Below, piece after piece: positions 48,711 to 56,404 of a stretch of DNA of 64,000 nt. The stretch lies in the NCBI RefSeq assembly GCF_024204685.1, contig NZ_CP100350.1, positions 806,001-870,000 on the forward strand, in the 5' to 3' direction. Both the position numbers and the translations under genes were made by a program. The DNA comes from Gilvimarinus sp. DA14. GTDB taxonomy: Bacteria; Pseudomonadota; Gammaproteobacteria; Pseudomonadales; Cellvibrionaceae. Within the stretch, counting starts at the first letter, position 1; each line of letters begins with the position of its first letter. The notes under the pieces are model-generated. The model saw only the letters and a list, made by a program, of their open reading frames with translations. It made no database searches and had not been told where the DNA came from.

Positions 48711-48960
48711 CCCGTGTCGCCGGGCGTGCGAGTTACTTTTTAGGGGCAAAAAGTAACCAAAAACCCTTCCCCGGAGATCCCGCCCTACGGGTTCCCTCAC
48801 TCCAGCCTGTTTTTGCGGGCCGCATCGACAGGCCGTCCCTGGCCTGACGATGCTTGCGCAAACGTCCTGTTTGCTTACCCCCAAAAAGCAGGCTTCCGTT
48901 CGGCGGGCTCTACGGGGCTAAGAACGGCACTTCGCAACCACGGCCTTCAACGATTGACGA
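48711..48960 (+). repeat. Structured repeat, copy A
   Basis: It starts with the hairpin GTTACTTTTT / AAAAAGTAAC (48732-48757). A long main stem follows (48805-48819 with 48878-48893). Inside it are two hairpins: CAGGCC/GGCCTG with loop GTCCCT (48829-48846), and GCAAAC/GTTTGC with loop GTCCT (48858-48874). The end carries GGCACTTCG. An inverted relative is at 54297-54649. The 312-bp gap has no supported gene. Confidence 0.85.
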
Positions 48961-49960: not shown

Positions 49961-50085
49961 GGCCCTGCCGCCCCCCTCTCTCCGGCCTATTTTAGAGGGC
50001 CGCATAGACTCGCCATCCATGGCGAGACCATGCTTGCGTGAGCGTCCTGCTCACTTACCCTCTAAAATAGGCCTCCGTTCGGCTC
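49961..50085 (+). repeat. Structured repeat, copy B2 (lacks the 5' hairpin)
   Basis: A perfect 16-bp main stem GGCCTATTTTAGAGGG with its complement (49984-49999 and 50058-50073) encloses two hairpins: CTCGCC/GGCGAG with loop ATCCAT (50009-50026), and GTGAGC/GCTCAC with loop GTCCT (50038-50054). Every stem differs in sequence from copy A while its pairing is kept. Confidence 0.85.
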
Positions 50086-55653: not shown

Positions 55654-55844
55654 AATTCCACTTGAGTTTTCCGAGCCCGCCCGCGGGCAGTCTCACAATA
55701 ATTTTAAGTATCGGGCTGCATAAGATACGCGAATGTAAAGATTTAGTCGACCTTTAGCGTACCCCCCTGCTCCGCCCAAGGCAGCAACTACCAACTGGCA
55801 CTGACACCAATCAACAGAAATAGCTTTAACGCAAAAAGAGAATC

Positions 55845-56020
55845 GTGCCCGGAGCCGGACAAATCGGCCGGGAGCCGATTTAGATAGCGATAGCTAGCCC
55901 GCAGGGCCGAGCGCATGGACGCGCGAGTCACTTGACCGGGAACCGGTTCAAGGCCGGCAGGAACCGTCTGGCACGGCATCGGTGCCCAGAGAACTGCTTG
56001 ATCAAAAAAAGAAGATAATG
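55845..56020 (-). repeat. 176-bp tRNA-Leu-linked tandem unit 1
   Basis: The outer of two tandem units downstream of tRNA-Leu(UAA). Its left edge GTGCCCGGAGCCGGAC repeats the 3'-terminal bases of that tRNA gene. A perfect hairpin AAATCGGC/GCCGATTT with loop CGGGA follows. No coding frame is supported. The 191 bp between this unit and accA show nothing that could be named. Confidence 0.9.
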
Positions 56021-56196
56021 GTGCCCGGAGCCGGAAAAATCGGCCGGGAGCCGATTTAGATAGCGATAGCTAGCCCGCAGGGCCGAGCGCATGGACGCGC
56101 GAGTCACTTGACCGGGGACCGGTTCAAGGCCGGCAGCAACTGTTTGGCACGGCATCGGTGCCCAGAGAACTACTTGATCAAAAAAAGAAGATAATG
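56021..56196 (-). repeat. 176-bp tRNA-Leu-linked tandem unit 2
   Basis: Same length as unit 1 and almost the same sequence; it begins GTGCCCGGAGCCGGA and ends at the CCA of the real tRNA. It carries the same AAATCGGC/GCCGATTT hairpin and the same A-rich end. The two units plus the tRNA 3' end give three copies of the tRNA-derived segment. Confidence 0.92.
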
Positions 56197-56283
56197 GTGC
56201 CCGGAGCCGGACTTGAACCGGCACGATCAATTAAGATCGGCAGATTTTAAGTCTGCTGTGTCTACCAATTCCACCACCCGGGC
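56195..56283 (-). tRNA. tRNA-Leu (anticodon UAA)
   Basis: An 89-base class II tRNA: acceptor GCCCGGG with CCCGGGC, a long variable arm, T-arm GGTTCAAGTCC and encoded CCA. Anticodon TAA is at 56247-56249 (reverse) in loop CTTAAAA. It lies 47 bp after tRNA-Cys and is probably cut from the same transcript. Confidence 0.97.
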
Positions 56284-56330: not shown

Positions 56331-56404
56331 TGGAGGCGCGAGCCGGAATCGAACCGGCGTAACCGGATTTGCAATCCGGGGCATAACCACTTTGCTATCG
56401 CGCC
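56331..56404 (-). tRNA. tRNA-Cys (anticodon GCA)
   Basis: A 74-base tRNA: acceptor GGCGCGA with TCGCGCC, anticodon GCA at 56370-56372 (reverse), T-arm GGTTCGATTCC and encoded CCA. The usual partner tRNA-Gly of the pgsA locus is not found between it and pgsA. Confidence 0.97.

Follow-up and report, generated by a model that had tools for sequence, protein, structure and literature searches.

Tandem repeats downstream of tRNA-Leu(UAA) in Gilvimarinus probably carry a small mobile hairpin element

What lies downstream of tRNA-Leu(UAA)?

The DNA considered here, which we call the window, is a stretch of 64,000 nucleotides corresponding to bases 806001-870000 of the 3.96-Mb single-contig genome of Gilvimarinus sp. 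DA14. Within it a tRNA-Cys(GCA) gene stands upstream of a tRNA-Leu(UAA) gene, a neighbourhood that is retained at most loci of the family in the relatives compared. The tRNA-Leu gene lies on the minus strand, so the two repeat units beside it are downstream of the tRNA (Table 1). The gene adjoining the array encodes AccA, and its closest named counterpart found, with 94% identity, is from Gilvimarinus gilvus, in line with a member of the Cellvibrionaceae; the stretch of the G. gilvus record that was covered contains no tRNA gene. The two units beside tRNA-Leu, which an earlier sequence-only reading had described as two repeats of 176 bp directly after tRNA-Leu(UAA), are real: they are 95% identical to each other without indels, and the sole array found by TRF in the window spans positions 55836-56211, with a period of 176, 2.1 copies, 96% matches and no indels. 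The repeat search placed the pair at 55833-56008 and 56009-56184, also with 95% identity, and located a third copy of the tRNA-end segment within the tRNA-Leu gene itself.

Read in the direction of the tRNA, unit 1 opens with a T-rich trailer and a spacer; next come the T-arm in inverted form and its 5' half in direct form, then a core and last a copy of the tRNA 3' end. The core of about 72 nt consists of four hairpins (TGACTCGCGCGTCCATGCGCTCGGCCCTGCGGGCTAGCTATCGCTATCTAAATCGGCTCCCGGCCGATTTTT), and to its right stand the 3' half of the T-arm and the acceptor strand through CCA (CCGGCTCCGGGCACCA); with one half of the T-arm on the left and the other on the right, the tRNA copy is thus interrupted in the T-loop by the core. 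It had been said that each unit carries the last 15-16 bases of the tRNA before CCA, and the copy is indeed there in both, but its length needs correcting, since that of unit 1 comprises 17 nt with the CCA included; the copy in unit 2 has one mismatch, which falls within the CCA. The hairpin that had been singled out, AAATCGGC/GCCGATTT, is likewise present, but it is the last of the four in the core, and because each unit also holds an inverted T-arm and a direct copy of the T-arm 5' half, the part derived from the tRNA exceeds what had been recognised. When folded, a window unit does little better than its shuffles on the tRNA strand (z -1.26) and better on the opposite strand (z -2.91). The terminator search lists no canonical terminator hairpin between tRNA-Leu and the units, so that the units are probably transcribed with the tRNA.

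Table 1. Features of the array and the neighbouring tRNA genes (positions within the window)
Feature	Position	Strand	Basis
tRNA-Cys(GCA), upstream of tRNA-Leu	56331..56404	minus	ARAGORN
tRNA-Leu(UAA), intact gene copied by the units	56195..56283	minus	ARAGORN; Rfam tRNA 55.6 bits
Unit 1, 176 bp	56019..56194	minus	repeat search, TRF
Inverted tRNA-Leu T-arm copy, unit 1 (CCGGCCTTGAACCGG on the minus strand)	56119..56133	minus	inverted repeat; class-wide profile
Direct T-arm 5'-half copy (CCCCGGTCAAG), left of core 1	56107..56117	minus	sequence, junction analysis
Core 1, four-hairpin module	56035..56106	minus	model R1 score 98.5 bits (by construction); orientation opposite to that of rtT cores
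tRNA-Leu 3'-end copy (17 nt, CCA included) closing unit 1	56019..56035	minus	repeat search, junction analysis
Unit 2, 176 bp	55843..56018	minus	repeat search, TRF
Inverted T-arm copy, unit 2	55943..55957	minus	inverted repeat
Direct T-arm 5'-half copy, left of core 2	55931..55941	minus	sequence
Core 2	55859..55930	minus	model R1 score 97.8 bits (by construction)
tRNA-Leu 3'-end copy (17 nt, one mismatch) closing unit 2	55843..55859	minus	repeat search

Where else do such units occur?

Within the same genome, a search of 1 kb downstream of tRNA and tmRNA genes found a perfect copy of the gene's own last 16 nt, 143-193 bp downstream, at eight of 41 genes, namely Leu(UAA), Phe, two genes for Asp, Ser(GCT), Ser(GGA), Met and tmRNA, which argues that the tRNA-end copies are not a product of chance. 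R1, as we call the covariance model built on the 72-nt hairpin core of the window, recovers 18 core copies in this genome at E < 0.01, mostly within tRNA-tail units, and our census of the genome covered 29 merged stretches around tRNA genes and cores. Two of the loci hold almost entire tRNA copies: a near-complete tRNA-Ala at about 77.5 kb (77.25-77.9 kb; locus L096) is split by the core in its T-loop, with similar loci in several congeners, and a near-complete tRNA-Met with the core in its T-loop lies at about 3438.5 kb. The core GTGCAAAATGGCTATCCTGCCATTTTGT is common to the Ala, Asp and tmRNA loci, and at each of them the flanks match the locus's own RNA gene.

The core also occurs outside tRNAs. 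In the relative G004, a copy of the 5S rRNA 3' end is split by the core in a hairpin loop and is preceded by an inverted 5S tail, and the loop of an rRNA terminator that is empty in the window's genome (CTGTAGATAGTCCTGCAG) is filled by the core in the congeners G001 and G003. At these sites, the rRNA terminator and the 5S copy, no target duplication is evident. As a separate observation, the 5S rRNA tail recurs in inverted form beyond the terminators of rRNA operons (L194:1340-1760; L094:1500-2300, minus strand), and the inverted copies in the window's own genome stand without an adjacent core.

At the Leu(UAA) locus itself, related units are found in at least seven relatives (G001, G002, G004, G006, G007, G011 and G025). 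The window's genome has two, G006 and G007 have one each, G004 and G011 have one plus part of a second, and those of G001 and G002 are decayed; G003, G005 and most other genera examined have none at this locus. The sequence-only reading had proposed comparing the locus for copy number and period, and on that comparison the units recur with a varying copy number and with periods, measured between the 3' end in the tRNA gene and its repeat, of 172 to 218 bp across genomes. Base 59 in the T-loop of tRNA-Leu, which is G or T, is mirrored in the inverted copy of the same genome (CTTGAACC or ATTGAACC). That reading had also named what would undo it, an absence of similar units after this or other tRNA genes in relatives, which would leave a single recent local duplication without wider meaning. 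The window, with just two copies, might be read that way, but the idea is refuted by the units of these relatives and by those at about a dozen other kinds of stable-RNA gene, and we give it practically no chance.

Two further features of this locus may be recorded. In some relatives, partial matches to tRNA-Leu(UAA) lie near full-length ones (for example, G010:C20:3694-3969), and in G003, where the units are missing, an open frame that looks by eye like those of phage integrases lies about 160 bp beyond tRNA-Leu(UAA) (locus L128).

How do the units relate to known repeats?

The tRNA-linked repeats (TLRs), the class of rtT/RttR and of RrA, RrB and RrF, were first reported in 1978; E. coli has 22 at ten loci, and in their last 18-19 bp they equal the 3' end of the tRNA or rRNA gene that precedes them (PMC8144298). 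That paper gives RrA, RrB and RrF as expressed in E. coli and bound by Hfq and CsrA, states that the amino-acid-starvation role once claimed for the RNA of the tyrT repeat has since been withdrawn, and describes TLRs as having no known function apart from the work on RrA/B/F. RtT RNAs have been detected by RT-PCR in Actinobacillus pleuropneumoniae (PMC4986893). The window units fit the TLR class as already described, and we therefore take them to be TLRs and not a new class: they lie directly downstream of a tRNA gene, they repeat its 3' end, exactly over 17 nt in unit 1 and at 16 of 17 positions in unit 2 (slightly under the 18-19 bp of E. coli), they number two at a locus where TLRs number one to five, and they share the core of E. 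coli TLRs, since R1 matches rrB and the RtT loci, in the opposite orientation. In the passages of the TLR literature that we covered we met no description of the T-loop interruption or of two core orientations.

Matches of R1 at RtT loci reach E values down to 3.8e-13, and the spacer between T1 and T2 of E. coli K-12 rrnB, which is the home of RrB, scores 32.5 bits (L196:339-410). At RtT loci and rrnB alike the match always falls on the strand opposite the stable RNA gene, where that gene was identified, so that the window units carry the rtT-type core inverted. Judged by these covariance-model matches, the window core is homologous with the RtT and RrB cores, though inverted relative to rtT, a homology that the sequence-only reading had left unclaimed. 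The rrnB T1-T2 spacer, which has the same core as the window units, is also the spacer widely used in expression vectors. R1 finds no match in the repeat cores of E. coli tyrV, so the link between the window and tyrV rests on anatomy and on RtT. The tyrV array, of period 178, reads GGGGAAGGATgagaagCTTCGACC-aa-GGTTCGA[core]AATCCTTCCCCCACCACCA, the annotation of RttR extending as far as the repeated CCA, and comparison with it bears out, down to the junctions, the suggestion that the architecture is that of the E. coli tyrT repeats.

The Rfam RtT model (RF00391), which is independent of our alignment, does not match the window units even with E values allowed up to 1, and hence yields nothing there at its gathering score of 45 bits, which is consistent with the inverted core. 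Its only match in the window's genome is the Ser(GCT)-linked core, at 30.9 bits and E 7.6e-4, below the gathering score; in a congener it scores 75 bits, above threshold, after tRNA-Lys. More widely, RtT matches occur in 50 of 274 genomes of Gammaproteobacteria (18 over the cut-off) and in 46 of 398 of Pseudomonadota (29 over the cut-off), and those loci that were examined lie after Tyr, Gln, Ser, Pro, Lys and tmRNA genes, in many cases as tandem copies. One family (f217) outside the window's class is rich in RtT matches, which suggests transfer or an older origin of the repeat family.

Taken against their closest counterparts, the E. coli TLRs and rtT (RttR at tyrT-tyrV), the window units are alike in lying downstream of a stable RNA gene, in the identical 3' end (17-19 bp), in forming one to several tandem copies of about 180 bp, and in having a tRNA copy split in the T-loop, an inverted T-arm and a homologous core. 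They differ in adjoining tRNA-Leu(UAA), in the opposite orientation of the core and in having no canonical terminator hairpin before the units. With Rfam RtT they share the anatomy and a recognisable core, other units in the genome and genus matching that model weakly or above threshold. RrA, RrB and RrF resemble them in the R1 match at rrB and in the repeated RNA 3' end around a hairpin core, but those are linked to 5S rRNA, have the core opposite to the window's, and theirs is the reported binding to Hfq and CsrA (PMC8144298). The REP and REPIN sequences mobilised by RAYT are also short, dispersed, gene-less hairpin repeats; the window's cores, unlike these, sit in the hairpin loops of stable RNAs and have no linkage to RAYT in the genome, and we set aside an identity as RAYT-mobilised REP because no core flanks either of the genome's two Y1 transposase genes.

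How constant is the junction between tRNA and core?

Both sides of the junction could be placed in 46 tRNA- and tmRNA-linked units, from E. coli to Gilvimarinus. In all 46, the tRNA sequence to the left of the core stops 16-18 nt short of the tRNA 3' end (18 nt in 42), the copy on the right is 15-19 nt long in all 46 (17-19 nt in 45), and this position in the T-loop holds in both orientations of the core. Together, the two lengths mean that the tRNA copy, followed from one side of the core to the other, is whole, with hardly anything lost or duplicated. Alignment of these sequences establishes the anatomy as class-wide, and with it the junction position and the two orientations; the 18-19 identical bp that are the hallmark of TLRs are accounted for, in these alignments, by the distance from a fixed split point in the T-loop to the CCA. 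In 7-mer profiles, the direct copy of the T-arm 5' half agrees with the cognate tRNA in 73% of cases as against 17% with swapped tRNAs at e=19, figures that become 56% and 5% at e=20, and the inverted T-stem/acceptor in 33-42% as against 1-3% at e=8-11, so both the direct T-arm half and the inverted fragment upstream of it are specific to the cognate tRNA.

The core lies on the strand of the RNA gene at Leu(UAA), Leu(GAG), Phe and Gly and on the opposite strand at Ala, Asp, Gln, Met, Ser and Tyr, with tmRNA divided (three opposite, one the same). This constancy within each tRNA type, bar the one tmRNA row, suggests that inheritance has been mostly vertical. By eye, the core read in the rtT sense is flanked by G before and A after at most sites, with Leu(GAG), Met and tmRNA as exceptions, and a G^A step would locate the core, whichever way it is turned, at GANTC, a near-palindrome in the T-loop. 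In the tRNA-Gly and Leu(GAG) units the tRNA appears on inspection to be split outside the T-loop, and the Gly units could not be placed by the junction script.

The att sites of integrases begin inside the T-arm and run through CCA, and since the repeats of our units likewise start in the T-arm and run through CCA, it is natural to ask whether the tRNA 3'-end direct repeats are att-site remnants left by a minimal integrative element devoid of genes, an idea to which the integrase-like open frame after tRNA-Leu(UAA) in G003 lends something. Recombination at att, however, would leave the 3' part of the T-arm only, whereas here both halves flank the core, and homologous cores stand, in either orientation, at about a dozen RNA genes, including 5S rRNA, and at terminators. 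Because of the two flanking halves, and because loops of 5S rRNA and of terminators hold this core as well, we reject att remnants as the main explanation and consider them quite improbable.

Is the core maintained as an RNA?

The stems of the core are 98.5% paired and include 16 double-changed cells in seven sequences, from which the structure itself was drawn, and none of 500 shuffles scored as high. The Leu locus shows compensatory changes of its own between congeners (AAATCGGC/GCCGATTT as opposed to AAATCTGT/ACAGATTT). G-U wobble pairs in rtT-oriented cores favour the transcribed strand by 15 to 3, whereas inverted cores such as the window's have no bias (7 against 7); the combined count of 22 against 10 (p 0.05) is weak, as one orientation drives it and an excess of C-to-T changes on the coding strand could produce the same pattern. 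At the level of sequence, selection on the RNA is suggested for rtT-oriented cores and not for inverted cores like those of the window.

It might then be proposed that the units are genes for a functional small RNA like rtT/RttR, selected for its RNA structure and without any mobility, whose tandem copies raise the dosage. The compensatory changes in the core stems, the wobble excess in rtT-oriented cores, the spread of RtT matches across the genomes counted above and the published RtT and RrA/B/F RNAs all agree with this. Against it, the window core is inverted, so that a transcript of the tRNA would carry the complement of the rtT core, and inverted cores are those without wobble bias, while units at the same locus are decayed or absent in the congeners G001, G002, G003 and G005. 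We regard a functional RNA as a doubtful account of the window units.

Could the core be a mobile hairpin element?

The explanation that we favour, and think probable on the sequence comparisons, is that the units are TLRs in which a hairpin core, a small mobile element, sits within copies of the tRNA tail and is co-transcribed with the tRNA. Each unit is a truncated copy comprising the T-arm and the 3' acceptor strand of tRNA-Leu, and a core of about 70 bp interrupts it in the T-loop; ahead of this split copy lies an inverted T-arm, and behind it the sequence that follows the tRNA recurs. The core itself would be a non-autonomous element that, without duplicating its target, entered the loops of hairpins with which stable-RNA operons end, often, from inspection, at a G^A step. 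Its insertions presumably persist as long as the RNA gene is still present in an intact copy, and unequal recombination between tail repeats may alter the number of units. Transcripts would probably run from tRNA-Cys and tRNA-Leu into the units, which might be trimmed at the repeated tRNA 3' end, as has been proposed for RrB in E. coli.

The filled and empty hairpin loops, the two tRNA pseudogenes and the 5S copy support insertion, on sequence grounds, with the empty and filled pair being one between species, at a multicopy rRNA terminator, and no movement observed between close strains. We found no transposase or other mobilising enzyme for the core in the genome, and no core lies within about 1.5 kb of its two Y1-transposase genes. 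The inverted T-arm is not explained by simple insertion. Also counting against this reading are the fixed orientation per tRNA type, the Gly and Leu(GAG) units in which the split falls outside the T-loop, and the unremarkable fold of the window unit on the tRNA strand. More broadly, the TLRs of the Gammaproteobacteria and beyond, including rtT and the rrnB T1-T2 spacer, may be relics of one mobile hairpin element that inserted, without target duplication and on either strand, into the hairpin loops of stable-RNA genes and terminators, mainly in the T-loop at about positions 57-60, a proposal for and against which we find ourselves evenly divided. The junction analysis does tie tRNA- and rRNA-linked repeats to one core in two orientations, and it makes the mobility of TLRs testable by sequence, through filled versus empty loops in sister strains.

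One other identity for the units was considered, the TwoAYGGAY RNA (RF01731), because of an AUGGAC loop on the plus strand, and was rejected, the model having no match at the units. The window does contain two matches to that model above its gathering score elsewhere on the minus strand, at 48761-48925 and 49977-50080, and with about 20 matches in the genome, 12 of them over the cut-off, this candidate RNA motif behaves here like a dispersed repeat.
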